A DNA stretch of 64,000 nt. Source: Phormidium sp. OSCR. Its GTDB lineage: Bacteria > Cyanobacteriota > Cyanobacteriia > Cyanobacteriales > Geitlerinemataceae. Where the stretch lies: assembly GCA_001314905.1 (NCBI GenBank), contig LJZT01000009.1:1-64000 (forward strand). Reading direction: 5' to 3'. Positions 23,892 to 45,333 of the stretch are shown piece after piece. Below the pieces are notes generated by a model. The model was not told where the DNA came from and did no database searches. It worked only from the letters and a program-made list of their open reading frames with translations. Made by a program: the position numbers and the translations under genes. The first letter of the stretch is position 1. Each line of letters begins with the position of its first letter.

Positions 23892-26072
23892 TTAAAGGTT
23901 GATGTTGAGAGCCTGAAACGCCGATCGCAACTGTTGGGCGTTTTGGACATCGCCTTGCTGTTCGTAGGCGATCGCCGCCTGACGATAGGCCATCAATAAG
24001 GCTTGGGGTGATTCTACATTTCCCTCAGAATTCTGTATATTTAATAACACCCAACCTAAATTATGCTGGGCGGCTGCTAGGTGGGGGGCTTCCGTCACGG
24101 CTTGTTCTAAATAGGCTTTAGCCTGTTGCCAGTCTCCCTGTTGAGCCAAAAGAGTTCCTAAGCGATAATTCACCCAGGCACAATCGGGATGCTGCTGCCG
24201 ATAGGTTTGATACTGTTGAATGGCGGTAGTTAAGTCTTTGAGATGTTCGTACACTAAAAGACCGTTTTTGTCAACCCATTCTGGGGAATTGTGAGTTCGA
24301 CGCGCTAAATCCAAACTGTGACGACAGGCGGCTAAATTTCCCTGTTGATACTGATACCAAGCCTGCAATCCCAACGCTAGAGGATGTTGGGGAACGTCAG
24401 TTAAGAAGGCTTGCAGACGACGTTGAGCATCCCCGCCTGTCTTACCGGTGGCTCGTTCTAGGGCGGAAATCACCAGGGGATACACCCAGGATTTTAAGCG
24501 GAGTCCGACCTCCCTCGGCGTCTGTTGGGACTTAAAAATCCCCTGACTTCCCGCCCGCACGACGGCTTTCCACTGTCGCTGATGAAAACTAATCCAGGCT
24601 TTGACTCCTAAAGAGAAGGTACAGTTAGGATTGAGTTGCAAAGCTTGTTCTATAGAGGTGTCAGCGGCTGGAAAATCTCCTTGTTTTCCCAAGGCCCAGG
24701 CGAGATTAGCGTGCATCCAGGCTTCTTTGGAACTCAGACGAACTCCCTGTTGTAACTCCCCCACAGCATCATTCCACTGTTGACGGCGACAATAGACTAA
24801 GCCACAAACGCCATAACTGCGTCCATCCTGGGGTTGCAGTTTTTGGGCTTGACGGGCGATGTTGAGGGCGTTGCTTCCATCGTCGTGGTTGAGATGGACG
24901 AGAATTAGGGCGAATTCGACGGCGGCTTCTCCGTTGTCGGGTTCCCGTTCTAAACAGGTTTGGTAAAACTGAATGGCTTGATTGAGATTTCCCTGATTTA
25001 AATGATTTTTGGCGGTTTGATGGAGGGGGGAAACGAATTTTCCTTGTAAGGCATTTCTGAAGTCTTGGGCGGTTTGAATCCGCTCTTGAATGCGAAGGCG
25101 CATTCCGGTCAAAATGACTCGTTCTAGGTGCGGGCTAATGTTGGGATTCAGTTGTCGGGGAGGGATGAGAGGGTCGGGTTTTCCTTCATGAACGGCTGTG
25201 GCGCGGTCTGTTGATGCGGCGGGTAATTCTCCGGTGAGGAGTTCGTAGAGAGAGGCGGATAGGGCATAAATATCGGTGGCGGGAAAGCGTTTGGCTCTCT
25301 GGGAATATTGCTCAAATGGGGCATAACTGTGGGAGAGAAAAACCGTCATATCTCCTGTTTTTCCGGCCATAAACTCTCGGGCGGTGCCAAAGTCAATGAG
25401 AACGGCCCGGTCTTGGCTGTCTATCATGATATTTTCGGGTTTAACATCCCGATGTAATAGGCCAATCCGATGAACCTCGTCTAAGGCATTCACGATTTGT
25501 AAGCTATAGTCGATTAGCTTATCTTCTGGGAGTCTATTTTGTATTTTTAAAAGTTTGGATAAATCACGGCCATCGATAAATTCCATGACCATATAAATGG
25601 TTGAATTTTCCTGGAAGCAATCGTAAATTTTGGCGATATTCGGTGAATTACATTTTTGTAAGTAAACCGATTCTAGTTTGAATTTCTGAATCTGCTCATT
25701 CCGAGAGTCGGGGGTAATTGAGGGCGGCCAAATTACGGTGTTTCCTTGTCGATATCCTGATTCTGGCCAGAGTTCTTTAATGGCAATTTTGGCGGAATTG
25801 GGGCAATAAATGCCTTGATAGGTAATTCCAAATCCCCCTTGACCTAAGAATTTTTCGATTTTATAGGTTCCTTGTTTTAAGACCGTCCCGACTTGCAGGT
25901 GTAATCTATAGTTTGTGGGGGAATTGGGGGAGGGATTGACAGCAGGAACAGGGCCGGAGGCGATGGTGGGGGCGGGTTGAGAATTAAGAGGTGTTAGGGG
26001 GGTTCCACAAACGACGCAGTTGACTTCCTGAGAGTCATTGTCATGTAAACAGGAGGGACAAATCTTACTCAT
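23892..26072 (-). CDS. Zinc-ribbon Ser/Thr kinase with TPR domain
   Basis: A 726-residue protein. Residues 5-22 form a CxxC...CxxC zinc ribbon. The kinase domain (about 65-345) has the Gly-loop GQGGFGITYQG, the VAIK Lys in IAIKEL, HRDVKPEN and DFGTA, so it should be active. About ten TPR-like helical pairs (about 350-720) follow. It is cytosolic, with no membrane segment. It is the last gene of the same-strand signalling cluster and shares its zinc ribbon and kinase with the gene just upstream. Substrates are unknown; the neighbouring VWA and FHA proteins are candidates. Confidence 0.9.
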   Translation of the reverse strand: MSKICPSCLHDNDSQEVNCVVCGTPLTPLNSQPAPTIASGPVPAVNPSPNSPTNYRLHLQVGTVLKQGTYKIEKFLGQGGFGITYQGIYCPNSAKIAIKELWPESGYRQGNTVIWPPSITPDSRNEQIQKFKLESVYLQKCNSPNIAKIYDCFQENSTIYMVMEFIDGRDLSKLLKIQNRLPEDKLIDYSLQIVNALDEVHRIGLLHRDVKPENIMIDSQDRAVLIDFGTAREFMAGKTGDMTVFLSHSYAPFEQYSQRAKRFPATDIYALSASLYELLTGELPAASTDRATAVHEGKPDPLIPPRQLNPNISPHLERVILTGMRLRIQERIQTAQDFRNALQGKFVSPLHQTAKNHLNQGNLNQAIQFYQTCLEREPDNGEAAVEFALILVHLNHDDGSNALNIARQAQKLQPQDGRSYGVCGLVYCRRQQWNDAVGELQQGVRLSSKEAWMHANLAWALGKQGDFPAADTSIEQALQLNPNCTFSLGVKAWISFHQRQWKAVVRAGSQGIFKSQQTPREVGLRLKSWVYPLVISALERATGKTGGDAQRRLQAFLTDVPQHPLALGLQAWYQYQQGNLAACRHSLDLARRTHNSPEWVDKNGLLVYEHLKDLTTAIQQYQTYRQQHPDCAWVNYRLGTLLAQQGDWQQAKAYLEQAVTEAPHLAAAQHNLGWVLLNIQNSEGNVESPQALLMAYRQAAIAYEQQGDVQNAQQLRSAFQALNINL

Positions 26073-26138
26073 GGTTTGGCGGGCTGTATGTTGAGTTTAA
26101 GGTAGGAGTTTGAAAGTTTTATCGGTTTGTGCGACTCA

Positions 26139-27461
26139 TTAACTAGACGTTAAGATAAATTGGACTTTACCTAAGGCAATTTCATCGCCAAACTGTAGGT
26201 TATTGGGTTGAGTGATTCGTGCTCCAAAGCGAGATTGACCTTGGGGCTTGATAAAGGTTCCGTTCGTTGACCCCATATCTTTAATCATCCATTGTCCTGA
26301 ATTTATGTAGATTACGGCATGTTGGCGAGAGACTGTTTCACTCCCTATAAATTGGCTTAAATCTAAGTCAATGGAGTCGGAGTTTTGAGGGTCTTTAATA
26401 CCAATTTTTAGATATTTTTTCAATGGAATGCGGTTTTTAGAACGGGTGTTTTTGCAGATAAGATAGGCAGATTTGGGAACTGAGGGAGATGGCGGCGGTG
26501 GTAGGAGAGGTTGTAGCTGGTGTTGTAAATCTTGGGCGCTTTGGATACGGTCCTCGATTTTAAAGTTTAGACCTTTTAGGAGGATGTCTTCGAGGCTGGG
26601 ATTGAGGTTTGGATTGAGTTGTCGGGGGGGGATAAGGGGGTCGGAAAGGCTCTGAGAGAGGGCGTTGGCGCGGTCGAGAGAGGGGGTTGCAACTTGTCCG
26701 GTGAGGAGTTCGTAAAGGGAGGCGCAGAGGGCATAGATGTCGGTGGCGGGGAGGCGTTTGGTTCGAGAGAGGTATTGCTCAATGGGGGCGTATTCTGGGG
26801 TTAAAATTCTCGTCATATCGCCGGTTTTTCCGGCGATGAATTCTCGGGCGGACCCAAAGTCAATCAGGACGACTCGACCTTGGGGCGTAAGGATGATGTT
26901 TTCGGGTTTAATGTCTCGGTGGAGGAGGTTATTTTGATGGACGCGGGTTAGGGCTAGGCTGAGTTGATAGGCGTATTGAATGACCTCGGTTTCGGGGAGG
27001 GGCGCTTGTTGTTTGAGTCGGGCTGAAAGGGGGAGTCCTTCGATTAGCTCCATACTCATGTAGATGGTGGAATTTTCTTGAAAAAGTTGGTAAACTTTGG
27101 CAATATGAGGGGAGTTACATTGCTGTAAGCAAGCCACTTCAAATTTGAATTTTTCGATTTGTTCTTGTTGTAGTTTCGGGGAGAGACTGGGGGGCCAAAT
27201 GAGGGTGGTTCCGTGACGGTAGCCATTTTCTGCCCAGAGTTCTTTGATGGCGACGGGGATGTTTTTGGGACGATAGATGGCTTTATAGGTGATTCCAAAG
27301 GCGCCTTGTCCGAGAAGGGTCTGGATTTGATAGTCTCCCTGCTGGAGTTGGGTTTTGGGGGGAAGATGGGGACCGATGGGGGTTAGGAGGGTTCCGCAGA
27401 CGACGCATTGATGAGCGCCGTCTGGGTTGTCATGAAAGCAGGAGGGACAGATTTGGCTCAT
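26139..27461 (-). CDS. Zinc-ribbon Ser/Thr kinase with C-terminal FHA domain
   Basis: From the ATG at 27461 the product has about 440 residues. A TTG eight codons earlier would overlap the PP2C gene and is less likely. It has a zinc ribbon (CPSC...CVVC), an active-looking kinase domain (GQGAFGITYKA, VAIKEL, HRDIKPEN, DFGSA) and a C-terminal FHA domain with the phosphothreonine-binding residues in SRQHAVIY and GSTNGTF. Kinase-FHA fusions usually bind their own or a partner's phosphothreonine. The PP2C gene ends 4 bases upstream, so kinase and phosphatase are made from one transcript. Confidence 0.92.
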   Translation of the reverse strand: MSQICPSCFHDNPDGAHQCVVCGTLLTPIGPHLPPKTQLQQGDYQIQTLLGQGAFGITYKAIYRPKNIPVAIKELWAENGYRHGTTLIWPPSLSPKLQQEQIEKFKFEVACLQQCNSPHIAKVYQLFQENSTIYMSMELIEGLPLSARLKQQAPLPETEVIQYAYQLSLALTRVHQNNLLHRDIKPENIILTPQGRVVLIDFGSAREFIAGKTGDMTRILTPEYAPIEQYLSRTKRLPATDIYALCASLYELLTGQVATPSLDRANALSQSLSDPLIPPRQLNPNLNPSLEDILLKGLNFKIEDRIQSAQDLQHQLQPLLPPPPSPSVPKSAYLICKNTRSKNRIPLKKYLKIGIKDPQNSDSIDLDLSQFIGSETVSRQHAVIYINSGQWMIKDMGSTNGTFIKPQGQSRFGARITQPNNLQFGDEIALGKVQFILTSS

Positions 27462-27465
27462 GAGC

Positions 27466-29379
27466 TTAGGATGGGGAGGGGACAAACTCCTGGGGATGAA
27501 AGCGACAGCGTGCAGCGATGAGGGTGGCGTTGTCGATCGCCCCCCGCTTGAGGACGGTGTCTAGGATGGTTTGAACGGCGCTGTGGAGGGGAATCGATGG
27601 GCTGAATTGTTCTTGTAGTTCGCGGTCAGGAACTAAATCCCAAACGCCGTCGGAACATAAGACAAGGATATCTCCATCTTCTAGGGTTAGGTCAGTCTGG
27701 GTTTGTATGTAACCGCGAGACAGTTGTTGTTTGGAACCGAGGGATTTGGTGAGAACGTTGCGATCGGGATGTTCGTAACTTTCTTCTAGGCTAATTTCAC
27801 CGCTGGCGACGAGGAGGGCGACTAGGGAATGATCTTCGCTCAGTTGTTGAATGTCTTGTTTTCGTAGCAGGTAGATGCGACTGTCTCCGACATGGGCCAG
27901 GGAGAGATGTCGTCCTTGGGCGAAAATGAGGCTGAGGGTGGTTCCTCCGTTCGGAACGGCTTGGGAAATGGCGCTGTTGGCGTTTTTGAGGAGGGATTCT
28001 AAGTGCTGGCTGGGGTTGTCGCTGAAGTGATGGGATTGCGATCGCCATTCCTGAAAGACGGTTTCAATGGCTAGTTGACTGGCGACTTCTCCTTGGGCCA
28101 TTCCTCCCATTCCATCGGCTAAGGCGGCTAAAAGTTGCTGGTTGTCTGGGGTTCCTTCGTCGAGTTGGGCGACTCCGTAATGGTCTTCGTTATGTAAGCG
28201 TCGCGGCGATAAGCCAACGGTGGAGTCACTGGCGATTTCCCAATGGAGGCGCTGTTGGTTGAAACGATTGCGGGTTTCAATGAGCAAACTCCGGAATTGT
28301 GCGAGGGAAAAACGCTCGTCGCTGATGGGAGTTAGGGAGAGGGACAGCAGTTGGGAGAGATAGGGAATTGCACAGGGTTTGGGGTCTAGGGGGCGATCGC
28401 CCCTTGTGCATTCTCCGGACAGGGCGTGATAGAGTAATGCCCCGATGGTATAGGTGCTACTGGCTTCGTTGGGGATGGGCTGGGCGCTTAGTTCGGGTGC
28501 GCAGTAGGTTCCCAAACGTCCTGAGGTGAGGGGAGTTTCTTCGGGATAGGCGCAGGTGAGGTCGAAACAGCGCAGAGGTTGACCCATTTCTAGCCAGTCG
28601 GGGTCGAGGTCTACCATACACCAGTGCTGTTGATGGATATACCAGAAGAGTTGACAAATTTGGGCGATCGCCGTCAGGGTGTCTTTTAGGCTGGGGGAAC
28701 GCTCTAACCACTGCGCTAGGGTCTTGTCAGGCTGGGGAAAGGCGGTTAGGAGGAGGAGGCGATCACCCTCATCTCCGGGTAATGGCTCTTCGGGATAATA
28801 TTCGTCTTCTAAATACTCTGATTCTTCCTCTGTGTCGACTGATTCGGTTGCGACTGATTCAGGGGCGACTGATTCGGGTTCTAGGGATTGAGACTGTTGT
28901 GAAGACCCCTCTGTTTCAGATTGAGAGTCTTCAGATTCAGAGTCTTCAGATTCCGAGTCTTCAAATTGAGAGTCTTCAGATTCAGAGTCTTCAAATTGAG
29001 AGTTTCCAGATTCAGAGTCTTCAGATTCCGGTTCGACGGAAGCTAGGGAGTCCCCCCCATCCTCCTCACTGAGGTAAGACTCCCCCACATCTTGGGACAA
29101 CTGCAAAATCTCGGATAGGTCAGAAATCTGACTCTGAGCCAGTAGAGGCGCAATGAGTCCATAATTTCCTAGGGTGTCCCGGAGTTGTAACTCCTGCTGA
29201 AGTAACCCTTGAGCGGAACCAATCCGTAATAATCCGTCCTGAGGGGTGTCTCCGGTTTCAGTCTCCACGCGGACTTTGAAATAGCGAATTTGACCCCGTT
29301 GACCCAAATTCGCCAGAACCGTCAGGGAGAAGGGAGATAGGCTGAGGCGGCTGTTTTCGGTAATTACATCTGAAGTCAC
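27466..29379 (-). CDS. PP2C phosphatase fused to a pseudokinase, acidic linker
   Basis: The 637-residue protein starts at GTG. Residues 1-100 are a small N-terminal domain, and 105-190 a Ser-Glu-Asp repeat linker (DNA repeats at about 28915-29030). Residues 205-370 look like a degenerate kinase: an APE-like CAPELSAQ and helices are present, but Gly-loop, HRD and DFG motifs are missing. Residues 385-630 are a PP2C-type phosphatase with its metal-binding residues (NEDHYG, ADGMGGMAQGE, HVGDSRIY, SDGVWDLV, DNATLIA). It should dephosphorylate Ser/Thr targets of the two kinases encoded downstream. The pseudokinase may bind a kinase or substrate. Confidence 0.9.
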   Translation of the reverse strand: MTSDVITENSRLSLSPFSLTVLANLGQRGQIRYFKVRVETETGDTPQDGLLRIGSAQGLLQQELQLRDTLGNYGLIAPLLAQSQISDLSEILQLSQDVGESYLSEEDGGDSLASVEPESEDSESGNSQFEDSESEDSQFEDSESEDSESEDSQSETEGSSQQSQSLEPESVAPESVATESVDTEEESEYLEDEYYPEEPLPGDEGDRLLLLTAFPQPDKTLAQWLERSPSLKDTLTAIAQICQLFWYIHQQHWCMVDLDPDWLEMGQPLRCFDLTCAYPEETPLTSGRLGTYCAPELSAQPIPNEASSTYTIGALLYHALSGECTRGDRPLDPKPCAIPYLSQLLSLSLTPISDERFSLAQFRSLLIETRNRFNQQRLHWEIASDSTVGLSPRRLHNEDHYGVAQLDEGTPDNQQLLAALADGMGGMAQGEVASQLAIETVFQEWRSQSHHFSDNPSQHLESLLKNANSAISQAVPNGGTTLSLIFAQGRHLSLAHVGDSRIYLLRKQDIQQLSEDHSLVALLVASGEISLEESYEHPDRNVLTKSLGSKQQLSRGYIQTQTDLTLEDGDILVLCSDGVWDLVPDRELQEQFSPSIPLHSAVQTILDTVLKRGAIDNATLIAARCRFHPQEFVPSPS

Positions 29380-29426
29380 GATGGCGTTGTCCTATGGTGA
29401 GTCGGAGGGGGGATGGGGAGGGGAGG

Positions 29427-30152
29427 TTAAGAGGCTTGGACGAAAAATTGCACTTTTCCGAAGGCGACTTCATCTCCGGGATTGAGCGGAGTCGGACGGG
29501 TAATTCTGGCTGAAAAACGGGGTTGTCCTTGGGGTTTGATGAAGACACCGTTGGTCGAACCGAGGTCTTTCACCATCCAGGTTCCTGCTTCGGGGTAAAT
29601 TTCGGCGTGATGACGGGAGACGGTTTCTCCCCCGATAAAGCTTTCTAGGTCGATGTCCACGGGACCGCTGTCAGGGTCAAACACGCCGATGAGGGAAATT
29701 TGATGGACGGGAAATTCTATTTGGGGAGCGTTGGTTTGTTTGGCGGTGAGACAAATCGCTGGGGAACTGGCGGGGGAACTGGCGGGGGAACTGGCTGCGG
29801 CTGGGGGGACCGTCTCACGGATGGGAAAACTGGGGGGAGCGGGAGGCGCATTACCGGGGGCTGGGGGAGGGGTGAAGACGGGGTCTTGACTCTCGATGGG
29901 GGGGGGACTGTTGGGCGCGGGAGGGGTGAAGACGGGGTCTTGACTCTCGACTGGGGGGGGACTGTTGGGTGCGGGAGGGGTGAAGGGAATAATCTCTGGG
30001 GTGCTGTCTGGGGTGCTGTCTGGGGTGCTGTCGGGTGCGGTAGAGTTGCTTTGGGGTTGTGCGCTTAGGTTGAGTTCGGCGCCACAGGCGTCGCAAAATT
30101 CGGCGTTGTCGGGATTTCCATCGTAGCCGCAGGTGGAACAGGTAATGGACAT
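29427..30152 (-). CDS. Zinc-ribbon FHA-domain adaptor
   Basis: The ATG at 30152 gives about 241 residues and avoids overlapping the upstream VWA gene, so I prefer it to an upstream start at 30269. A CxxC...CxxC zinc ribbon (CSTCGYDG, CDACGAEL) is followed by a Pro-rich linker with tandem repeats (FTPPAPNSPPP twice) and a C-terminal FHA domain (SRHHAEIY, GSTNGVFI). The architecture is that of an adaptor that bridges phosphothreonine proteins. The FHA domain closely resembles that of the kinase two genes downstream. Confidence 0.88.
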   Translation of the reverse strand: MSITCSTCGYDGNPDNAEFCDACGAELNLSAQPQSNSTAPDSTPDSTPDSTPEIIPFTPPAPNSPPPVESQDPVFTPPAPNSPPPIESQDPVFTPPPAPGNAPPAPPSFPIRETVPPAAASSPASSPASSPAICLTAKQTNAPQIEFPVHQISLIGVFDPDSGPVDIDLESFIGGETVSRHHAEIYPEAGTWMVKDLGSTNGVFIKPQGQPRFSARITRPTPLNPGDEVAFGKVQFFVQAS

Positions 30153-30213
30153 GGTTCTATTTTGTAAGTAATTGGGTTGGGTTGATTGGGTTGATGGGGT
30201 TGGGTTGATTGGC

Positions 30214-31539
30214 TTAGGTTCCGCTGATATCCCGGATTTGTTCTTGGGAGAGTCCGTTGTTGAGGTCATCGCTGGTCATTTTGACGGTTTTTCCTTTGGC
30301 CCCCATTTTGACGGTTTTGCGGGTTCCGGAGGAGAGTTTGCGGGTTTTGCGGACTTCATCGATACTGAGGTTGAGGGATTGCACCATGGCGTCGTTGCCG
30401 ATTTTGACGGTGACTCGTTTGGCGGTTTCTAGGAGTTGGGCGGCTTGGTCGGGGTTTTGGTCGGCGATGGTGGCGGCGCGATCGACGAGTTGACCGATGT
30501 TACATTGTTGGACGTAGCCCATGACTTCGGGGTTGGGTTGCGCCATTCCGGTTTGTCCGGGGACGAATTGCACGACTAGGTTTTGGGGGGGAAGTTCTCC
30601 GCGTCGTTGTTGGCCGGGAATGTCGTAGGTTAGCCCCAGTTGGGCGATGCGCACTCGGGAACCGGCGCGGCTGTCGATGTCAAATTCGAGGAGAAATACG
30701 GTGTCGTCGTGGGCTTGGGCGCTTCCGATGAAGTAGGGTTGTTGGTCGAGGGGAATGTCGGCGCGATCGGGATAGACGCGGCTGATGCGTTGTAGGTTGA
30801 CGCCTTGGACGGTTTTTAGGTTGAGTTTGAGGTTGTTGACGACTTCGGTTTGAACGTCTTGGACTTGTTGAAAGATGGTGTTGGGAAGGTCGCTGATGGA
30901 GATGTCGGTTCCTCCTTGGCTTTGTCCGTCGATGACGTTGAAGAGTTGTCCGCCGGTGCGATCGCTCAGATGGATGAGTAGGTCTTCGTTGTAGTCTCCT
31001 ACCCCTAGGGCGGTGATGGGGATTCCTGATTGGGCGAATTGTACGGCTAAGTCTCGACAATCGCTTTCGTCGAAGGTTTGTCCGTCGGTGAAAATTAGGG
31101 TGCGACGACTGGTGAGGTCGCTGTTTTTCAGGAGGCTGAGGGCTTTCTCCATTCCTAGGGCCATGCAGGTTCCACCGCTGAAGTCTCGTAGTTGGCTGAT
31201 GGCGTTTTCTAGGCGATCGCTGTCGGTGGCGGGGGTGAGGGGAAGTAGGATGGAGGCGGAGTCGTCGAATTGGACGAGGGCGATGCGATCGCGGGCGTCG
31301 GCTTGGCTGGAACTGATGAGGTGTTCTAAGGCTTGGATGACGACGTCGATTTTGGCGGTCCCGAGTTCGCTGCTGTCATACATTGAGCCACTGGTGTCGA
31401 TGACTAGGCTGAAGCTGGTGGTGGGACGACTGGCGGAGACGTCGGCGCTGGGGCGCAGTTTGGCCATGACAAAGAGTTTTTGTCCGGCTTTGTCGGCGCT
31501 GAGAAATTCGAGATGGGGGGTGAGGGTGACGTTGAGCAT
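30214..31539 (-). CDS. Cytosolic VWA-domain protein with repeated Thr motifs
   Basis: This protein has 441 residues with no signal or membrane segment. The VWA domain (about 42-230) has a complete MIDAS: DTSGS at 48-52, the Thr in GGTCMALG and the Asp in FTDGQTFDES. A beta-rich region (about 240-340) and a helical region follow. The last 50 residues contain three KTxK[LM] motifs, with Thr at about 399, 409 and 418. They have the Thr and +3 hydrophobic pattern that some FHA domains bind after phosphorylation. VWA-kinase-PP2C triads are known in tellurite-type stress systems; the context here is comparable. Confidence 0.88.
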   Translation of the reverse strand: MLNVTLTPHLEFLSADKAGQKLFVMAKLRPSADVSASRPTTSFSLVIDTSGSMYDSSELGTAKIDVVIQALEHLISSSQADARDRIALVQFDDSASILLPLTPATDSDRLENAISQLRDFSGGTCMALGMEKALSLLKNSDLTSRRTLIFTDGQTFDESDCRDLAVQFAQSGIPITALGVGDYNEDLLIHLSDRTGGQLFNVIDGQSQGGTDISISDLPNTIFQQVQDVQTEVVNNLKLNLKTVQGVNLQRISRVYPDRADIPLDQQPYFIGSAQAHDDTVFLLEFDIDSRAGSRVRIAQLGLTYDIPGQQRRGELPPQNLVVQFVPGQTGMAQPNPEVMGYVQQCNIGQLVDRAATIADQNPDQAAQLLETAKRVTVKIGNDAMVQSLNLSIDEVRKTRKLSSGTRKTVKMGAKGKTVKMTSDDLNNGLSQEQIRDISGT

Positions 31540-31563
31540 GGCTGGGCTGGGATGCGGCTAGGG

Positions 31564-31953
31564 TTAGTTAAAGTTTAAGGGCGGTAAGGCGCCTCCTTCG
31601 GGGCTGATTTGGGAGAAGTCGGGGGGGAAGAAGGGAGGAAGGCTTGGGTTTCCGCGATCGCTGAGGTTTTTCAGGGTTTCTAATTCTAGGGGAGCGAGTT
31701 TTAGATCTAGCCAGGTTGAGCGATAGCCTTCTCGGATATCGTCGAGCCAATGGTTGATGATTTGTGTGAGGTTGGCGTTGCTAATGGAGGCGGCGGTCTT
31801 TTCTTGGAGAAGTTGTCGTAATGCATCACGATTTGCTTTTGGGAAGAGTGAGTCGGGGTTATTTTCTTGGCTTGGAGACAGATCGAGTTGATAGCTGACT
31901 TCGGGAAGGTCGGGAGTATTGCTATTTTTGAGATAGAGGGTATAGAGAACCAT
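31564..31953 (-). CDS. Small protein of unknown function in the VWA/FHA cluster
   Basis: A 129-residue soluble protein. A beta-like start (MVLYTLYLKN), a helical middle (RDALRQLLQEKTAA, NLTQIINHWLDDIREGYRSTWLDL) and a Pro-rich, Phe-containing end. No family is recognised. It lies 38 bases downstream of the VWA-membrane-FHA gene and 24 bases upstream of the cytosolic VWA gene, so it is probably cotranscribed with both. Confidence 0.7.
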   Translation of the reverse strand: MVLYTLYLKNSNTPDLPEVSYQLDLSPSQENNPDSLFPKANRDALRQLLQEKTAASISNANLTQIINHWLDDIREGYRSTWLDLKLAPLELETLKNLSDRGNPSLPPFFPPDFSQISPEGGALPPLNFN

Positions 31954-31991
31954 GGGGCTTGCTAGTAAGCCGAAAGATGCAGGGTGATAAG

Positions 31992-33644: not shown

Positions 33645-33674
33645 CAACACTTGCCTAACTGAAATACACCCAGT

Positions 33675-35410: not shown

Positions 35411-35450
35411 TATCATGATAGAGGATTGATTTGAAAAAAGCAAGATTCAT

Positions 35451-36743: not shown

Positions 36744-37770
36744 CAATGGTATAGAAGGTCAGGACGTAGTTATGTTTAAGGGTGACATCACGACGGGAAC
36801 CGAGGCGGGTTCCGTTGACGGCGACGGTTCCATAAAATTTGGGATTAGGACATAAGACGGCTTCTTTTCCTTTAAAGCGGATATCGGCGGCGTGGAGAGG
36901 AAGGTTGGGAAGTTGAATTTGGGCCTTGTCCGCTGAACCGATGCGAATTACGCCTTTTGGTGGGAGTTCGATGGATAATCCTTCTTCGATTTTGTCCTCA
37001 TCATCGTCAGTTTTGGAGAGGTAGGTGATAAATCTTAGCTGGGAGCGATCGATTTTGGGATAGTCTCGCTGGACAATGGTAGCTTGGGGGTCAATGTCTT
37101 CATAATCTTCGCCGGTATATTCAAAGCCTCGTCCGGCTCTGAGGGCCGGGAGATAACTGGGGGACGCATTAGTGACACTGAACGCAATCCCTAAACAGAG
37201 TCCTAAAAGTGCAAATCCTAGGGGGTCTTCATAGGGTCTAAAAGCTGGGGGGACGGTCTCAATAAGTTGACGAATTAACTCAAAGATAGATGCAGCCAAG
37301 AGACTGGCGAAACTGGCGGCGCTGACACTGAGGAGAAGTCGTTGGCGGAACCGTTTGGGGTTTCCTGCTTCTAAACTATGCCATCGCCAACTCAATCCTT
37401 CCGCAAATCCGACCGCCGCTCCCACTACTAGCCAGCCAAAGATACGCACAAAAAAGGCGGGAACGGGGATGTCCGGGAGAAAGAGAATTTGTGAGACAAC
37501 CCCCGCAATTACCCCCGCCAACAGTCCCACTCCCAAGGCGATGAGCAGCGGGATTCGCAGCATTCGCAAACTCAGTTTGGGACGGGTGGGGTTACTGACA
37601 AAAATTTCGTTGGCGACACTCCCAATGGCGAGGGAAATGGCGATACAGGGGAAGAGGACGACTTCGGGGAAGGGTTGCAACCAGCCGAAATCACTGAGAA
37701 TCAGTTGTCCGAGATTCCAACCCAGGAGCGCGGAGGTCAGTCCCGCAAGGATATAAAGGTAAGGTCGCAT
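36670..37770 (-). CDS. Multi-pass membrane protein with FHA-like C terminus
   Basis: In this 366-residue protein, about six membrane helices occupy residues 1-210, with Gly-rich turns (LGVGLLAGVIAGV, GWLVVGAAVGFAEG). A linker (GEDYEDIDPQ) leads to a C-terminal FHA-like domain (about 255-360): IRIGSADKAQIQLPNLPLHAADIRF, split around the phospho-binding loop, and TVAVNGTRLG. The Ser/Arg/His core of canonical FHA is only partly kept. It is related in layout to the VWA-membrane-FHA protein at 31992-33455. It may gather phosphorylated partners at the membrane. Confidence 0.78.
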   Translation of the reverse strand: MRPYLYILAGLTSALLGWNLGQLILSDFGWLQPFPEVVLFPCIAISLAIGSVANEIFVSNPTRPKLSLRMLRIPLLIALGVGLLAGVIAGVVSQILFLPDIPVPAFFVRIFGWLVVGAAVGFAEGLSWRWHSLEAGNPKRFRQRLLLSVSAASFASLLAASIFELIRQLIETVPPAFRPYEDPLGFALLGLCLGIAFSVTNASPSYLPALRAGRGFEYTGEDYEDIDPQATIVQRDYPKIDRSQLRFITYLSKTDDDEDKIEEGLSIELPPKGVIRIGSADKAQIQLPNLPLHAADIRFKGKEAVLCPNPKFYGTVAVNGTRLGSRRDVTLKHNYVLTFYTIDEDDIETPENYRLVFYNRFFDPMA

Positions 37771-37888
37771 GGGTTAAAATCTCCGTGGCGGTTGAGCGGT
37801 GCGGGGAATGGGGGACATAAATGTTATATAACACGATGGACGCTAGGGGAAGGCAAGGGGTCGGGGAATTGGGGTTAAGGGGAGAGTG

Positions 37889-40441
37889 TTACCGTAGTTT
37901 TTCCCTGATATCTGCTGCTAATTTCTGAATTGTTGCTCCTCCAGGGTCAATAATTCCATCTTGTGCTAGTCCATTTCTATTCTGGTAGGCTTTAACGGCT
38001 TGAATAAATGTATCTCCATGTTCTTTGTCTTGAAACATAGAGTAGTATTGAATATCATCCCGTTGAATATCGTCACCTTCGGGATTCAAAAAATCTTTCA
38101 AGGATTCGCTAAAGCTCCAATTATCCTCAGGTATTAAAACTTCTTTCAATAATTGGATAAACACAATTTGTTTGTTAGACTCGATATCGTTACGTGAAAT
38201 CTGAGGGTTTTCACGAAGCGTAAATGCTTCGAGATCTGCATTTAGGTTCTGTCGTAATTGATCCAGAGCGGGTTGGGTTCGGAGGATATGCGTCTCAAAA
38301 ACTTGCCAAGATTCTATTTCTTGTTCTTTTTCCCTAAGTTCTCCCTCGACCACCTCAATCACCTTATTATTAGTAGACCTAGCAGAAATGACCGAACCCC
38401 CAACACCACCAATCACACAAACCACTGCAAAGAGTAAAATAGCCGTTAACCGATCCATGTCAATTCCTCCGAGATTTACGTTTGCGAAAAAAACGATGTC
38501 AATGACATCCCCCAACTCCATCTGTCGCTTGATTCTGATTCCAAAAAGCTGGTCTTGCCACTCCCGCTGCGATACCTTGAAGAATAGAGATTTGTGAATT
38601 TCCCCCTTTGAGACTTGATAGAAGAATGCGGCTAGTTTGGGGGTTTTCGCCTCCTCAAACAATTTAGCTAAGGGCAAATACTCCTTTTTTTTGACACTGG
38701 GTTCTCGCCAGGTTGAAGTGAGTCCACTCAGAAAATTTTTCCATTCCGGGTATTCAGTCGCCTGGAAGGATAGGTGTTTTTGACCATAAATATGTCTGCG
38801 CATCAAGTCTAGGTCATTTTCTAGACTAGGATAAAGATACTTGCGGTACTCACTCGACCATAAGCCAGTAGAAGAACTGAAAAATAGACAGGCTTCAGTG
38901 AGAACGGTTGGGTTATTGACAAGATTAGAAATAATGATACAGATTCCTCGCTGGAGTTGTTTTCTAATTGCAGTAAACTTATAAGATATTTTGGAGATTT
39001 CTTTGTATATTTTTTGCTGTAACTCTAACGATGCCGCATAGTGACTTTGGGAATCTTTCGACTGATGGAGCCAGACCAAGAACTCCGGTAAAAAACTGGG
39101 GAGGACGATAGATTTAAGGGTATAGAGACGAGCTATCTGATGGGTGTAGATTCCTTGCGTCATGGCGGTTGTGGCACCTAATGCATCGGTCATCTCAAGC
39201 CACTCTGACTTAGAGGTTTGAGGAATTGCATACTCTAAAGAACTGATGAGGTCGAGGCTGACTTTCCCTCGTAGCATCATTCGTTTAAGAGCGGTTTTGG
39301 GGGGAAGCGTGGGTTCCAGTGCTGCGGGTTTGACGTTCGCAGGCGGTTCCTCGGTTGTCGGTGCAATCACCTCCTCTTGGTCAAGGGAAGAATCCTCGGG
39401 AGAAGTGTTCTCGGTTGTCGGTGCAATCACCTCCTCTTGGTCAAGGGAAGAATCCTCGGGAGAAGTGTTCTCGGTTGTAGCTGGAATCACCACTTCTTCG
39501 CCAATGGAAAAGTCCTCGGTTTCCGGTTCAACAACAATCTTCTCGGGGATGTCCACTTCGGGAGGATTTGCAATGGAGTTGGAGGGAGGCGGTGTTAGGG
39601 TGGATAGGTCGGCTTTTGGGAACTGCGAACCGGCTTCAGGTTGGAGAATGAGGCCATAGAGTCGGGGAGGGAGTTTCACCACCGATAGGCGATGGACGAC
39701 GGCTTTGGGAACGTAGCCTTGGGAAATTTGATAGAAAATTGCGGCGAGATGAGGTTGTTCGGTTTTCTCGAAGACAACGGCTAAGGGGTGATAGCGGGAG
39801 TCCAGGCTTGGCTCTGTTTCGTCATCCCAAAATCGGTAGATGTCGGCTAATAGTTCTTTGAACAGTGGTGAAGATACGGACTCAAAGCTGAAGTCTAGGT
39901 CGGCGTGGGGGTTCATGTGTCGTAAGTACGATTTTAATTCCTCGGCGACAAGGGTTTGATAGGTATGGGACCAGAGACCCCCAGGAGACCAGAGACCCCC
40001 ATCAGAGGTTAAGAGTTGGATGGCGGGATGGAGGAGTTCAGCTTGTTTGTACACCAGTCGATAGAACAGAAATCTGACTCCCGATTCGAGTCGTTTTTTG
40101 AGGTTCGGGAAATGTTGCAGAAAATCAGAGTCAACGAAGCGAAGACTTCCTTGTAAGCTGATAAACCGTTGATAGGCGTACTCGGGACCGTCAGCTATCC
40201 AGAGGAGGAATTTTGTTAAAAATTTGGGAACCAGTAAGGCGTTGAGGGTACAGAGGTGAATTAGTTCTCTATTATAGGGGGGGTTCTCAAGTCCTAGGGT
40301 GAGTCCTAATTCGTCGGAGATGTCTCCCCATTCAGCTTGAGAGATGACAGAGACAGCATCTTCTAATAGGCGGATAGACGACTGAGTGATTATCCCAGTG
40401 ATAATGATGTCCTGAATTGTTTGTATGGCGATGTCTCTCAT
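37889..40441 (-). CDS. Single-pass membrane protein with duplicated unknown domain and PG-binding-like end
   Basis: The ATG at 40441 gives about 850 residues; a TTG eight codons earlier is possible. Two copies of an unknown helical domain (about 10-260 and 390-640) each contain an (L)GLWS..Y segment and an LAAxFYQxSxGxxxK segment. Between them is an acidic linker with a perfect 60-bp DNA repeat. One membrane helix (LTAILLFAVVCVIGGVGGSVIS) precedes a coiled coil. The end resembles a peptidoglycan-binding type 1 motif (FIQAVKAYQNRNGLAQDGI). The last 380 residues are closely related to the next gene upstream. By topology, the long part is cytosolic and the short end periplasmic. Confidence 0.75.
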   Translation of the reverse strand: MRDIAIQTIQDIIITGIITQSSIRLLEDAVSVISQAEWGDISDELGLTLGLENPPYNRELIHLCTLNALLVPKFLTKFLLWIADGPEYAYQRFISLQGSLRFVDSDFLQHFPNLKKRLESGVRFLFYRLVYKQAELLHPAIQLLTSDGGLWSPGGLWSHTYQTLVAEELKSYLRHMNPHADLDFSFESVSSPLFKELLADIYRFWDDETEPSLDSRYHPLAVVFEKTEQPHLAAIFYQISQGYVPKAVVHRLSVVKLPPRLYGLILQPEAGSQFPKADLSTLTPPPSNSIANPPEVDIPEKIVVEPETEDFSIGEEVVIPATTENTSPEDSSLDQEEVIAPTTENTSPEDSSLDQEEVIAPTTEEPPANVKPAALEPTLPPKTALKRMMLRGKVSLDLISSLEYAIPQTSKSEWLEMTDALGATTAMTQGIYTHQIARLYTLKSIVLPSFLPEFLVWLHQSKDSQSHYAASLELQQKIYKEISKISYKFTAIRKQLQRGICIIISNLVNNPTVLTEACLFFSSSTGLWSSEYRKYLYPSLENDLDLMRRHIYGQKHLSFQATEYPEWKNFLSGLTSTWREPSVKKKEYLPLAKLFEEAKTPKLAAFFYQVSKGEIHKSLFFKVSQREWQDQLFGIRIKRQMELGDVIDIVFFANVNLGGIDMDRLTAILLFAVVCVIGGVGGSVISARSTNNKVIEVVEGELREKEQEIESWQVFETHILRTQPALDQLRQNLNADLEAFTLRENPQISRNDIESNKQIVFIQLLKEVLIPEDNWSFSESLKDFLNPEGDDIQRDDIQYYSMFQDKEHGDTFIQAVKAYQNRNGLAQDGIIDPGGATIQKLAADIREKLR
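39351..39530. repeat. 60-bp direct repeat in a coding region
   Basis: Bases 39351-39410 and 39411-39470 are identical. A third, diverged copy extends to about 39530. In the minus-strand protein they encode repeats of about 20 residues in the acidic linker (EEVIAPTTENTSPEDSSLDQ). Confidence 0.92.
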
Positions 40442-40491
40442 GTTGGTCTGGGTCTTGTGTTTCAATCAAACTGTTCCATCTCGTTTGTCTA

Positions 40492-42693
40492 TTATTCTCC
40501 AGGAGGTTCAGATGGACTTAATTTCTCCCTGATATCTTTTTCTAATTCCTGACTTGTTTTTCCTCCACGGTCAATAATTCCATCTTGTGGTAGTCCATTT
40601 CTATTCTGGTAGGCTTTAACGGCTTGAATAAATGTATCTCCATGTTCTTTGTCTTGAAACATAGAGTAGTATTGAATATAACTGGATTCAACAGTCTGTT
40701 CCGGCTCAATATTATCTTCCGATGGGTTATCATCTTCCGATGGGTTATCATCTACAGCACTTTCACCATTAGTATCAGTTAATACTTCTTTCAAAAAGTG
40801 AATAAAAACATCTTTTTCATTAGATGCGACGTAGTTGGGTGAATCTACAGGGTTCCTACGAATAAAATCATCGAGTTCCTGATTTAGATTTAGGTTCTGT
40901 CGTAATTGATCCAGAGCGGGTTGGGTTCGGAGGATATGCTTCTCAAAAAGTTGCCAAGATTCTATTTCTTGTTCTTTCTCCGTAAGTTCTCCCTGAATTT
41001 CTTGAGTTCTTTCCTGAACCACCTTAGTAGTAGAATTACCAGAAATCATCGAACCTCCAACACCCCCAATCACAAAAACCACTGCAAAGAGTAAAATAGC
41101 CGTTAGCCGATTCATGTCAATTCCTCCGAGATCTACGTTTGCGAAAAAAACGATGTCAATGACATCCTCCAAATCCATTTGTCGCTTGATTCTAAGTCCA
41201 AAAAGCTGGTCTTGCCACTCCCGGTGCGATACCTTAAAGAATAGAGATTTGTGAATTTCCCCCTTTGAGACTTGATAGAAGAAGGCGGCTAGTTTAGGGG
41301 TTTTTGCCTCCTCAAACAAGTTAGCTAAAGGCAAATACTCCTTTTGTTTAACTCCAGATAGTTTCCAGACTGACGTGAGTTCCCCCAGAAAATTATTCCA
41401 TTCCGGGTATTGATTCGCCTGAAAGGATAGGCCTTTGTGACCATAAATATGTCTGCGCATCAAGTCTAGGTCATTTTCTAGCTTAAGATAAAGAGACTTG
41501 CGATACTGACTCGACCATAACCCAGTAGAAGACCCCAGGAGTAAACTGGCTGCATCGAGGAGTTGGGGATGCTTGACGAGATGCGGGATGAGACCGCAAA
41601 TACCTCGCTCAAGATTTTGACTGATTTTAGGGATTTTCTCTAAATTGTTGCCCAGTTTGTTGAGGATTTCTGTCTGAAATTTTAGAGTGGCTAGGTAATA
41701 GTTGTTTAACTGCTTGGGTTGATTGATCCAGTCTAAGAAATTAGGCAGAAAACTGGGGATGACGATGGCTTTGAGGGTTAGAAGACGAAAATTTCTATCG
41801 GCATACAAACCGCCAGATATCGCCTGAGATGCACCTTGCTTATCCAGGAGTTTTGTCCAATACTTCTCATCAAGATTGGGATTATCGAGCGCATTTTCAA
41901 TGGCTTGAATATGGTTTATCTTGACGCGACCATTCATACAGGCTTTAATCGCCGTCTGAACATTGGAATCGCCAGGAATGGGGGGAGGTGAGGCGGAACT
42001 CCGAACGATCGCCTGTCTTAAAATCCCCTCCGCTTTCCCATCTATCGGACAAATCACCTGGAAATACTCAGGTCGCTCCAACGCCGCCACATTATAGGCC
42101 CAAGCCGTTTCCCCAGACGGTTGTAATTCCTGAGTTAAGCGATTGACAATTAAGGGAGTACAAGGAACCGTTGCGGGGATAAGGATGGGGATGTCCCCCG
42201 TGAGGAGTGTGCGAAATTGCTCTGGGAGGGGAATCTCTTGGTGGCTGAACTGAGTTCGATGAGGCTGACCCAATGTTTGAGGGTCGAAGGGATCAAAGAC
42301 GCGAATCTGGGGGCCCATCCAGCGTAGAATGGCCTCAATTCCTTGGCTGGCCCGGGTGAGAAAGTAGCGGTAGAGGGATACGGGACGACCGCGATCGTCT
42401 TTTCCCCGCGTCACCACCGCCACCACTGACCACTGTTCGCCATAGCCAGTCACCGTTCGTCCCACCAGGGCCGGATTGTCGCTACTGGCTCCCTCGGCTA
42501 ACTTAAATCCTCCGTTGGCGATCGCATCGGAGACGGCTTGAGGAATCGGATTCAGGGTTTGATTCATAAACACCCCAGTAAATCCCCCCGACTCCCAGCC
42601 TGAAGCAGTCCGTTTTACTTCAATCCCGGTACTAAATTCGTGAATCTCAAGGGGGAAACTTCCAAGGTTTGGAGAATTAGAATTGACAGTCAT
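40492..42693 (-). CDS. Single-pass membrane protein with GTPase-partner-like N terminus and PG-binding-like end
   Basis: From the ATG at 42693 this is about 733 residues; the upstream GTG/TTG-type start at 42726 is less likely. Residues 1-240 are an unknown domain (IHEFSTGIEVKRTASGW, GFTGVFMNQTLNPIPQA, WSVVAVVTRGKDDRG) absent from the paralogue. It could correspond to GAP1-N-type domains that accompany GTPases in conflict systems, a tentative idea. One copy of the helical domain shared with the downstream gene (about 250-500), a membrane helix (LTAILLFAVVFVIGGVGGSM), a coiled coil, and a peptidoglycan-binding-like end (FIQAVKAYQNRNGLPQDGI) follow. Three GTPase-like genes lie immediately upstream. 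Confidence 0.75.
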   Translation of the reverse strand: MTVNSNSPNLGSFPLEIHEFSTGIEVKRTASGWESGGFTGVFMNQTLNPIPQAVSDAIANGGFKLAEGASSDNPALVGRTVTGYGEQWSVVAVVTRGKDDRGRPVSLYRYFLTRASQGIEAILRWMGPQIRVFDPFDPQTLGQPHRTQFSHQEIPLPEQFRTLLTGDIPILIPATVPCTPLIVNRLTQELQPSGETAWAYNVAALERPEYFQVICPIDGKAEGILRQAIVRSSASPPPIPGDSNVQTAIKACMNGRVKINHIQAIENALDNPNLDEKYWTKLLDKQGASQAISGGLYADRNFRLLTLKAIVIPSFLPNFLDWINQPKQLNNYYLATLKFQTEILNKLGNNLEKIPKISQNLERGICGLIPHLVKHPQLLDAASLLLGSSTGLWSSQYRKSLYLKLENDLDLMRRHIYGHKGLSFQANQYPEWNNFLGELTSVWKLSGVKQKEYLPLANLFEEAKTPKLAAFFYQVSKGEIHKSLFFKVSHREWQDQLFGLRIKRQMDLEDVIDIVFFANVDLGGIDMNRLTAILLFAVVFVIGGVGGSMISGNSTTKVVQERTQEIQGELTEKEQEIESWQLFEKHILRTQPALDQLRQNLNLNQELDDFIRRNPVDSPNYVASNEKDVFIHFLKEVLTDTNGESAVDDNPSEDDNPSEDNIEPEQTVESSYIQYYSMFQDKEHGDTFIQAVKAYQNRNGLPQDGIIDRGGKTSQELEKDIREKLSPSEPPGE

Positions 42694-42747
42694 AGCTATC
42701 TCAGCAGTAAAAGAAATTCGGGACACCTCGGGTTAAGGTCAATCCCG

Positions 42748-43665
42748 CTAATCTCGGTCAAGTTCCCGGTGACGCTCTCCGGTACAGAGCCAGTAAATGG
42801 GGGACACTAAGCCAAAGGGTCGCCAGAGTTTCGGCTTTTTAATCACTGATGTGGTTCCATCACGCGATCGCCGCAAGCGTTTCGAGTTCGGTTCAGGATA
42901 CTGTCGTCCCAAAATCCCAAAGGCGGAGGTTGTGAAATAATCTACCGAACCATTCCCCCCCCTCGACCAAATCTCCAACTGACTCGACAGTTTAGGAAAA
43001 CGAGCCTTCACCAATTTTTGCGGTTCATGTCGGTTCACCCACAACTCCGACTGTTCACATTTGCTCAATACCAACGCAATCCGTCGCTGTTGGAGTTCGA
43101 CTTGGGAGCGATCGAGTTCCATCAAGAACTTCTCCATCCCCATCGCATAATCCCGGTCTTTGCGATGGGTGGTTCCATCGACGAGAAATAACAACCCCGT
43201 CGCCAAGCAGCAATCCTCTAAATAGTCTTCGAGGCGAGAGTCCCCACTTTTATAGAGTAAATCGCTAAAAAACTCCCCCGCATAGTCCTTACAACTGACA
43301 TTGAGTTGCACCTGTTTTCCTTCCCCCCGTAACCAGGAAAAGCGGTCTTTGAGATTAATACTCAGAGTATAGTCTTTCACCTCATCGATATCTGCATTCA
43401 GATCCGTCGGTTCGAGTTCTAATCCTTGTTCGAGGAGATCTCGCGCTTTCTCAACCAGTTCTTCCCCCTCCTCACCGATGGGGGTCACACTATCGACAGG
43501 ACTGTCGGGATTCGCGTTAGGCCAGTAGGCTAAGGAGGCGAGATAGGCGGTTTTTCCTGAGGCGCGATCGCCGATAATTCGTAGGGTTGAATCACCAGAC
43601 AATGTTTGTGCTGGAGCATCATTCGTGTCAGATGTATCCTTTTTGTTACGGCGAAAAAATTTCAT
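42748..43665 (-). CDS. Small GTPase-like protein C
   Basis: The 305-residue product has a basic N-terminal leader (MKFFRRNKKD) before the G1 motif GDRASGKT (residues 32-39). DYAGE (127-131) serves as G3. The G4 position reads LSKCE in place of NKxD, and G5 is TSAFG. It shares this altered G4 and overall plan with the next gene upstream, so the two are paralogues. It is probably a cytosolic P-loop nucleotide-binding protein of the TRAFAC type. The altered G4 may relax guanine specificity. Confidence 0.8.
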   Translation of the reverse strand: MKFFRRNKKDTSDTNDAPAQTLSGDSTLRIIGDRASGKTAYLASLAYWPNANPDSPVDSVTPIGEEGEELVEKARDLLEQGLELEPTDLNADIDEVKDYTLSINLKDRFSWLRGEGKQVQLNVSCKDYAGEFFSDLLYKSGDSRLEDYLEDCCLATGLLFLVDGTTHRKDRDYAMGMEKFLMELDRSQVELQQRRIALVLSKCEQSELWVNRHEPQKLVKARFPKLSSQLEIWSRGGNGSVDYFTTSAFGILGRQYPEPNSKRLRRSRDGTTSVIKKPKLWRPFGLVSPIYWLCTGERHRELDRD

Positions 43666-43718
43666 AATTGAAGCTAAATGAGGCTGTTCAAGAGCGAGAG
43701 AGAAACCTGAGATCTAAG

Positions 43719-44531
43719 TCAAGAACCATTGAGCCAATAGAGCGGTTCAAGCAAATTATAGGGGTTCCAACAGGGGGGATCTCGTAAAATCGAAGCTCGT
43801 CCATCACTTCCAAACGCATTGACTCGGTTCGGTCGTGGATTATATTTCCCCAATACGCCAAACGTGGACATGGCGAAAAAGCGTAAGTTTTTGGGAGGGA
43901 GTCCTCGTTTAAGAATGTTGAGGGTCTTTTTCAGGTAAACGCCAAATAAATCAATTTCCGGGTCAAGTCGTCCCGGCCAGATTTCTCCCCGTTCACATTT
44001 ACTCATGGCTACGGCTAAGCGATAATTGTGCAAGCGACCTCGTTCATCAAGCATCTCTAAAAAGCGAGCCATGAGTTGACTATAGAAGCGATCGCTGCTA
44101 CTCTCCCATTCAGTAAAAAGTAACAATCCCCCATCCACATCCGACATCAAGCATTCATCGATAAACTCCTCATGAATCGAATCCTCTTCATTGGCGTTGA
44201 TGATTTGCTCAAACACCTCACCAGGATAGTCACGAACATTCAGTTGAATCGAGGTTTTAGGCTTAAATAGCCCCCGATTGGCTTCAATCACAAAGGAGTA
44301 GTAGGGAAGGTCATCGACGGTCTGAATCCCATCCCCTAAGCGAGTTGGTTCTACGGATAATCCCTGTAAAATGGTATTTTCCGCGTTAATGGTCAATTCC
44401 TTCGAGTCTTCATTGACTGGTGTGATGGTATAATTTCGCCCTGAACCTTTGGCTTCAGCAAAGTAGCTGAGTCCTGCTAGATAGGTTGTTTTTCCTGATG
44501 CTCGCGGACCAATAATACAGATGTTACCCAT
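43719..44531 (-). CDS. Small GTPase-like protein B
   Basis: This 270-residue protein has G1 at residues 8-15 (GPRASGKT), G3 DYPGE, G4-like MSKCE and G5-like STFGV. It is paralogous to protein C encoded 53 bases downstream, with the same ending pattern (PLYWL against PIYWL). There is no membrane segment. The shared loss of the NKxD Asp suggests a change in base recognition or a fixed nucleotide state. Confidence 0.8.
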   Translation of the reverse strand: MGNICIIGPRASGKTTYLAGLSYFAEAKGSGRNYTITPVNEDSKELTINAENTILQGLSVEPTRLGDGIQTVDDLPYYSFVIEANRGLFKPKTSIQLNVRDYPGEVFEQIINANEEDSIHEEFIDECLMSDVDGGLLLFTEWESSSDRFYSQLMARFLEMLDERGRLHNYRLAVAMSKCERGEIWPGRLDPEIDLFGVYLKKTLNILKRGLPPKNLRFFAMSTFGVLGKYNPRPNRVNAFGSDGRASILRDPPCWNPYNLLEPLYWLNGS

Positions 44532-44565
44532 GTTAATTCACTCGGTTATGTTGATGATATCAGTC

Positions 44566-45333
44566 TTAGGAGTTTCCTTTAAGGAACGTCCCTAAATAAA
44601 TCCAAGGAAGCTCTAATAACTCACGATTATAAATACTGGTGATAAAACATTTAACCGATACCCCAGATGTTCGCTGATTCAGTTGAGCGATCTGGCGACG
44701 AACGGGACGAAAGAAGCGTTTAAAGATATAATCATTCCGCTGCATCCAGTTCATCCGTGAGTTTTGGGGATGATAGGCCAGTTTCTGAGCTTCTCGTTTA
44801 AGATCAACTCCCTGGAGAAGATCGGCTTTATTGAGACATAGAGCAATATGTTTGATTTGGGAACAGTCATTTTGGAAAAATTCAACCCAGCGATCGAAGC
44901 GTCGAATCCATTGCTGTTGGGTGACGAAATCATCGGGGTTAATATCGGCTCCCTGACTGACAATTTCTCGATAGGGAGGAACCACCAGTAACACTCCCTG
45001 ACAACTTTGAGTGACTGTTAGAAACTGATTCCATTGATCGGCGTTATTTTTTTGCCAAGTAGGACGCCAAATTTCTCCAGGGGTGTCAATCCACTCCGTA
45101 TAAATGGTCTTACGGCGAGTGGGAACGACCACTTCAATGTCCAGGGAACGGTCATGGGTGGATTGAGCGGCCTCTGTCGGTCGCGTTCTCCCCTCGTCAT
45201 CATCATACAAAAGGGCCTTGAGTCCCTCATAGTCCGGTGAGAGAACCTTAACATACTGACCGTTGGGATTGGCGAGTTCTAAGGCCAGAGAGGTTTTCCC
45301 TGTTTCGCGATCGCCAAGATAGATTACACTCAT
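44566..45333 (-). CDS. Small GTPase-like protein A
   Basis: This is about 255 residues from the ATG at 45333, with a GTG one codon earlier. G1 is GDRETGKT, G3 is DTPGE, G4 is a canonical LNKAD and G5 is a TSI-type segment. It is more distant from proteins B and C and looks like a true guanine-specific GTPase. It is the first gene of the minus-strand signalling run; priA on the same strand ends about 200 bases upstream. Confidence 0.82.
   Translation of the reverse strand: MSVIYLGDRETGKTSLALELANPNGQYVKVLSPDYEGLKALLYDDDEGRTRPTEAAQSTHDRSLDIEVVVPTRRKTIYTEWIDTPGEIWRPTWQKNNADQWNQFLTVTQSCQGVLLVVPPYREIVSQGADINPDDFVTQQQWIRRFDRWVEFFQNDCSQIKHIALCLNKADLLQGVDLKREAQKLAYHPQNSRMNWMQRNDYIFKRFFRPVRRQIAQLNQRTSGVSVKCFITSIYNRELLELPWIYLGTFLKGNS

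Follow-up and report, generated by a model that had tools for sequence, protein, structure and literature searches.

The closest described relatives of the locus reported here are DO-GTPase/GAP1-N2 neighbourhoods of actinobacteria in which a zinc-ribbon kinase is accompanied by a PP2C phosphatase and a stand-alone vWA protein (Kaur et al. 2020, eLife 9:e52696, PMC7159879); the same survey, which defined GTPase-centric systems as proposed conflict systems, reports almost none of them for cyanobacteria and ascribes the kinase theme to actinobacteria. A DO-GTPase has also been reported in envelope-stress (psp) operons (PMC11237479), and in the threonine phosphorylation pathway of the type VI secretion system (T6SS; PpkA, PppA, Fha, TagF, TagQRST) TagF represses the T6SS via Fha (PMC5995506). 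The present locus is a block of sixteen genes, numbered p01 to p16 by increasing coordinate, in a 64,000-nucleotide stretch of Phormidium sp. OSCR DNA (assembly GCA_001314905.1, contig LJZT01000009.1, positions 1 to 64,000 of the forward strand; hereafter the window). In make-up, its nearest relative is the DO-GTPase/GAP1-N2 kinase theme, and a sequence-only reading of the window, which did not know the combination as a described system, is not supported on this point in view of the neighbourhoods of PMC7159879; no description of the cyanobacterial operon was found in the literature. The locus is read here as one mobile, envelope-spanning surveillance operon with a make-up like that of the kinase theme, at about an even chance of being right. 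Within this reading, we are more confident of an envelope-facing, regulated complex than of a purpose in conflict or defence. Compared genomes and loci are cited by our own codes (G and L numbers, respectively).

The open reading frames (ORFs) of the window were checked, and all sixteen lie on the minus strand between positions 23892 and 45336 with the coordinates given in the sequence-only reading. Most intergenic gaps are shorter than 70 bases, the widest being 219 and 118 bases. The same-strand run alone is weak evidence, because the flanking genes priA (45540-48020) and glgA (22335-23774) are also encoded on the minus strand; the evidence against chance is the conserved gene order, the co-occurrence and an empty site. 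G005 and G002 are complete genomes from the same genus as the window; in both, priA and glgA are adjacent genes spaced by approximately 100-150 bases, and all sixteen genes therefore form one insertion of 21.7 kb (positions 23853-45539, strand-neutral), absent from both genomes in the alignment. The block is thus gained or lost as a unit within one genus. A third genome (G004) carries XisH and XisI at the same priA-glgA site (L150, 3862-4622).

The order GTPases-p13-p11-p10-lipoproteins-p07-p06-p05-p04-p03-p01 recurs in some dozen genomes, where genes of the middle part have been gained or lost, and on plasmids. Co-occurrence was counted in 291 genomes drawn across the cyanobacterial phylum. 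The cytosolic VWA protein p05 was present in 15 of them and the membrane protein p11 in 17, against 21 for the GTPase p14; all 15 genomes with p05 carried p14 and p11 as well (hypergeometric p of about 1e-20 to 1e-24, shared ancestry uncorrected). In G265, three modules are located at 1.73, 2.16 and 2.57 Mb, i.e., more than 400 kb apart; all were retained, and for each of them the best match among 14 compared loci is the intact one of G100. GTPase modules lacking the kinase module occur in G103, G181, G048 and G195, whereas no VWA/kinase module was found without GTPases (15/15 with them). Independence of the two halves, against which the earlier proposal had been set, was accordingly observed for the GTPase module and not for the VWA/kinase module. 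The dependence is one-way because the GTPase module also occurs alone, and in the hierarchy the GTPase module is the core, p11-p10 come second and the VWA/kinase module third. That a GTPase set and a VWA/kinase/PP2C set are two independent systems and mere neighbours would agree with the solitary GTPase modules of several genomes, but is highly improbable in view of the VWA/kinase module never standing without GTPases, the conserved order, the insertion of the block as a whole and the retention of all scattered modules in G265. A chance neighbourhood of two systems was ruled out by the empty site, the co-occurrence and the scattered retention.

A further set of 67 loci with p14, from named genome records that are all cyanobacterial by title, had the three GTPases together in 57 and p11-p10 together in 37 cases; the downstream half is undercounted in this set because the flanks reach no further than 10 kb or the end of the contig. 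In a variant form (G100, G132, G277; Pfam assigned from the G277 copy), the last module is replaced by an AAA ATPase, and a radical SAM gene lies upstream. The loci L066, L068 and L069 show a second form, which has radical SAM, three GTPases, a p13-like protein whose membrane part is of the DUF6688 type, p11, p10, a p06-like protein and an AAA ATPase; kinase, PP2C and FHA are missing from it. Inside the G015 locus, genes for an Eco29kI-type restriction enzyme and a C5 DNA methylase separate the PP2C gene from the FHA gene (L054, 4861-6729).

The GTPase was found on eight plasmid records, and the whole set on plasmids of Trichormus variabilis, Gloeothece verrucosa, Tolypothrix and Nostoc linckia (most genes of the last are annotated as hypothetical and were assigned by order and length). 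In the laboratory strain Trichormus variabilis ATCC 29413, the locus is complete on plasmid B, which measures 35.8 kb. No relative was present in the viral contig set, and for known anti-phage families PADLOC gave weak or generic matches only. On the plasmid of Tolypothrix PCC 7712 (L168, 1601-14059), the region upstream of the operon encodes a CHAT protein, HigB, a caspase, FGS (SUMF1), GUN4 proteins and a MoxR ATPase, and approximately 5 kb or less separates the operon from the closest of these genes; this neighbour set resembles MoxR-vWA ternary conflict systems in composition. The operon shares with the cyanobacterial MoxR-vWA ternary systems (VMAP, iSTAND) the presence of vWA domains, mobility and, on this plasmid, the location beside such a set. 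In contrast to these systems, it contains no MoxR (no MoxR/AAA_3 match was listed among the sixteen proteins), and the AAA ATPase of the G100/G132/G277 variant is of another type.

Three GTPases open the operon. The first gene after priA, p16 (GTPase a, 44566-45336, minus strand as for all genes below), has the motifs GDRETGKT, DTPGE and NKAD; p15 (GTPase b, 43719-44531) has GPRASGKT, DYPGE and SKCE; and p14 (GTPase c, 42748-43665) scored 35.0 bits with the DO-GTPase2 model, above its curated cut-off of 27 bits. The G1, DxxGE and NKxD/SKCE motifs bear out the earlier assignment of three GTPase-like proteins, with the Walker B motif intact in each (DYAGE, DYPGE, DTPGE). The matches of p15, which is 35% identical to p14, and of p16, which is conserved in 10 aligned loci, to DO-GTPase models (DO-GTPase1/2 for p16) are below the cut-off. 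The DO-GTPase2 model was matched in 23 of 283 cyanobacterial genomes, partly outside this operon. One such place is found in the genome of the window (G000:C18:22564-23139, 30.2 bits), and G001 and G005 each have one outside the priA-glgA locus.

The likeness to the DO-GTPase/GAP1-N2 kinase theme comprises GTPases with the Walker B glutamate, one of them (p14) above the DO-GTPase2 cut-off, a second component with a C-terminal transmembrane (TM) segment directly downstream of the GTPases, a zinc-ribbon kinase, a PP2C predicted to be active and a stand-alone vWA protein, as well as membrane- or cell-wall-facing domains and mobile neighbourhoods. Unlike the described systems, the operon has three GTPases, none with a zinc ribbon by domain and motif check (zinc ribbons are usual, not universal, in known systems); it has no sequence-level GAP1-N2 match and no FNIII protein, and it adds lipoproteins, membrane VWA proteins, a beta-grasp-like protein, an FHA adaptor and a slot for a serine hydrolase or amidase. 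At sequence level, GAP1-N2 (PF20013) was without a match in the genome of the window at E 10 and in all 283 cyanobacterial genomes (C. glutamicum was positive as control), and was not listed for p13 or its 49 relatives. No GAP1 was found in 11 plasmid records, mostly actinobacterial, and no FNIII was listed for the sixteen proteins at E 1 (for p01, among the best 25 of 35 families). Because GAP1-N2 was matched by none, the operon is likened to the kinase theme and not filed as a GAP1-N2 system.

Directly after the GTPases follows p13 (40492-42726), their putative partner. Its confident structural model (mean predicted local distance difference test score, pLDDT, 84.7) comprises a TagF/longin-like N-terminal domain (residues 23-241), a helical solenoid (250-500), one predicted TM segment (approximately 540-560) and periplasmic helices; the end of the protein matches PG_binding_1 (E 2.4e-05). 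TagF is longin-like, and longin folds are often partners of GTPases. Among the top eleven Foldseek rows for p13, five bore TagF titles (two entries), and one more was PA0076. TagF was also the best fold match in a second look (Z 6.5, root-mean-square deviation 4.2, 188 residues over 23-241); this likeness is a lead only, because a Z below 8 may mean a shared arrangement. A chain of the folliculin complex stood lower in the list (Z 3.6). By sequence, no TagF family was listed among the 49 relatives, and comparison of p13 with PDB sequences gave no convincing match. The next gene, p12 (37889-40465), encodes a paralogue (56% identity over 560 amino acids, in keeping with the two paralogous peptidoglycan-binding-type membrane proteins proposed earlier) that lacks the TagF-like domain and has the solenoid twice, a TM segment and a peptidoglycan-binding-like end; close orthologues occur in same-genus genomes only among the sampled loci. 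The periplasmic end of p13 is 60-74% identical between the window and G001. The outer end of G001 p13 is nearer to window p12 (79-89%) than to window p13 (region 37889-42726), and relative to G001 the outer ends of p12 and p13 appear to have been exchanged with each other.

The predicted cytosolic parts would form a phosphorylation circuit. Intact motifs were seen for the kinases (HRD and DFG), the PP2C (metal residues), the FHA domains of p02 and p04 and the metal ion-dependent adhesion site (MIDAS) of all three VWA proteins. The kinase p01 (23892-26072), found in nearly all complete loci, has a zinc-ribbon-like N terminus, an active-looking Ser/Thr kinase domain (Pkinase E 3.4e-39) and TPR repeats. 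The second kinase, p02 (26139-27485), combines a zinc ribbon, an active-looking Ser/Thr kinase domain and FHA; it was found in no other sampled genome and seems to have arisen locally by fusing a p01-type kinase to a p04-type FHA domain. A genome-wide survey of cyanobacterial Ser/Thr kinases (PMC2176072) lists kinases fused to TPR or FHA, among them a TPR kinase bearing an Ava_B tag; it deals with kinases only, and no description of the operon or the partners was found in it. The phosphatase p03 (27466-29379) matches PP2C_2 (E 2.1e-14) with intact metal motifs, and its N-terminal half resembles a degenerate kinase without HRD and DFG (hhalign to the p01 kinase: pairwise E 0.0011, Prob 20%). 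The adaptor p04 (29427-30269), whose start is probably at about 30152 rather than 30269 judging from the G001 orthologue, consists of a zinc ribbon and an FHA domain (E 1.6e-12; SRHHA and TNG kept); p02 and p04 have the only canonical FHA domains.

The cytosolic VWA protein p05 (30214-31539) has an intact MIDAS and a conserved basic threonine tail, RKT..xS..TRKT[VI]KM..KGKT[VI]KM, in which T399, S403, T409 and T418 are invariant in 22 distinct homologues. These residues may be targets of the kinases and may be read by the FHA proteins. Its match to TerY is weak (E 0.0028), and no Ter protein was listed for any of the sixteen proteins, which leaves little support for the analogy to tellurite-type systems drawn in the sequence-only reading. 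The small conserved protein p06 (31564-31953) is predicted to have a ubiquitin-like (beta-grasp) fold (pLDDT 78; top fold matches PB1/Ubl/Ufm1, with Z up to 4.9 only) and has no significant Pfam match.

Kinase/PP2C/FHA logic and lipoproteins are likewise found in the T6SS threonine phosphorylation pathway, to which the fold of p13 may add a TagF-like element, and the operon might be a cassette of that kind (PpkA, PppA, Fha, TagF) that controls another envelope-anchored machine, such as a thylakoid-type contractile injection system. This explanation would account for the joint presence of kinase, PP2C, FHA, VWA and lipoproteins, for TagF and PA0076 among the top Foldseek rows with TagF heading the second-look list, and would fit the known repression by TagF through Fha (PMC5995506). 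It is nevertheless quite unlikely: the T6SS kinase is membrane-bound with a periplasmic domain and the kinases here are soluble, the resemblance of p13 to TagF is structural and modest and is not accompanied by a TagF family at sequence level, and the sheath protein VipB/TssC was found in 0 of the 15 full-set genomes (E. coli was positive as control).

Towards the outside, p11 (36670-37770) is a polytopic membrane protein whose cytosolic end is FHA-like but degenerate (E 0.12 at best, in 3 of 9 p11 relatives), and p07 (31992-33455) is a membrane protein with a periplasmic VWA domain (intact MIDAS), several TM segments and a degenerate FHA-like end (Yop-YscD_cpl E 0.015). The two are related to each other (hhalign 95-96%), and FHA in them was not supported by profile comparison with p04. 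Of the two membrane proteins with FHA-like ends suggested earlier, the membrane proteins thus stand and the FHA ends stay weak. An N-terminal signal-like segment, a periplasmic VWA domain with intact MIDAS that matches acidobact_VWFA and a C-terminal TM segment make up p10 (35451-36746). The lipoproteins p09 (34544-35443; LSGC, weak SPOR-like end) and p08 (33675-34511; ARC6-like IMS domain, PF13355 E 2.5e-14) have a middle domain in common. Pfam and motif checks upheld the previously assigned PP2C, two kinases, VWA proteins and lipoproteins. In relatives, the p07 slot is shared or flanked by a membrane-anchored serine hydrolase (beta-lactamase-like; SxxK, SDN, KxG) or an AmiA-like amidase; the serine hydrolase was found in 12 named loci and on three plasmids. 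Compared with their G001 counterparts, the GTPases, p11 and p05 of the window are 97-99% identical, the lipoproteins 90-93% and p10 84%; such fast outer change with inner constancy would fit a sensor exposed to variable ligands. The system is placed in the envelope because of the TM segments, lipoboxes, PG_binding_1 and IMS domains, together with the serine hydrolase or amidase of relatives.

The IMS, SPOR-like, peptidoglycan-binding, serine hydrolase and amidase parts belong to wall biology, and a regulator of cell-wall homeostasis or envelope stress without a role in conflict therefore has to be weighed, in which kinases, phosphatase and FHA proteins would adjust peptidoglycan synthesis or remodelling in a PASTA-kinase-like manner and mobility would be incidental. 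The lack of a toxin-like effector and the DO-GTPase of psp operons (PMC11237479) suit this explanation. It is harder to reconcile with an operon present in only 15-21 of 291 genomes, gained or lost within one genus, plasmid-borne and adjoined on one plasmid by a MoxR conflict-type gene set, and with kinases that lack PASTA or other extracellular domains; we consider it possible but doubtful. Patchiness, plasmid carriage, the empty site and the neighbouring MoxR/GUN4/FGS/caspase genes of the Tolypothrix plasmid tentatively favour conflict over housekeeping; these neighbours together with the restriction enzyme and methylase of the G015 locus are the conflict-type company of the operon.

The surveillance operon would work as follows. 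The outer parts (peptidoglycan-binding ends of p13 and p12, VWA domains of p10 and p07, lipoproteins p08 and p09, joined in relatives by a serine hydrolase or amidase) would report on or act on peptidoglycan. The three GTPases would be the switch, with the cytosolic TagF/longin-like domain of p13 as their binding partner. The kinases p01 and p02 and the phosphatase p03 would set the phosphorylation of the p05 threonine tail, which the FHA proteins p04 and p02 would read, coupling p05 to the membrane complex. Upon a breach of the wall, the complex would assemble, and a wall-directed or damage-limiting response would follow. We infer this function, including wall sensing and the wall-directed response, from the parts and their predicted places in cytosol, inner membrane and periplasm. 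That the parts belong to one membrane-crossing system, as proposed in the sequence-only reading, agrees with these places and with the 15/15 co-occurrence, the 21.7-kb insertion, the plasmid copies and the retention in G265. Several points weigh against the surveillance operon: no recognisable nuclease or toxin is encoded in it; the window copy has neither the serine hydrolase nor the amidase; the kinases lack a TM segment, and none is predicted in p01 relatives; PG_binding_1 was recognised in only 7 of 49 p13 relatives; and a TagF match of Z 6.5 is too low to exclude a common arrangement.

A more specific form, unlikely as it is, would be a lineage-specific device for retaliation or self-sacrifice, spread by plasmids, in which a peptidoglycan breach would be sensed across the envelope and a switch made of three GTPases and the TagF-like element, controlled by threonine phosphorylation, would set free a wall-acting enzyme. 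If this were true, the phosphorylation and TagF control logic of the T6SS would exist apart from the T6SS, joined to DO-GTPases. The structural bridge between a GTPase partner and the T6SS repressor TagF is suggested and still weak. Whatever the purpose of the system, its variable part is a predicted peptidoglycan-acting enzyme rather than a nuclease. Set against the near absence reported in the 2020 survey, cyanobacteria have a scattered, patchy and plasmid-borne system of the DO-GTPase type that brings its own partner family, and with the plasmid copy of Trichormus variabilis ATCC 29413 it can be tested directly whether such GTPase/kinase circuits monitor the cell envelope.

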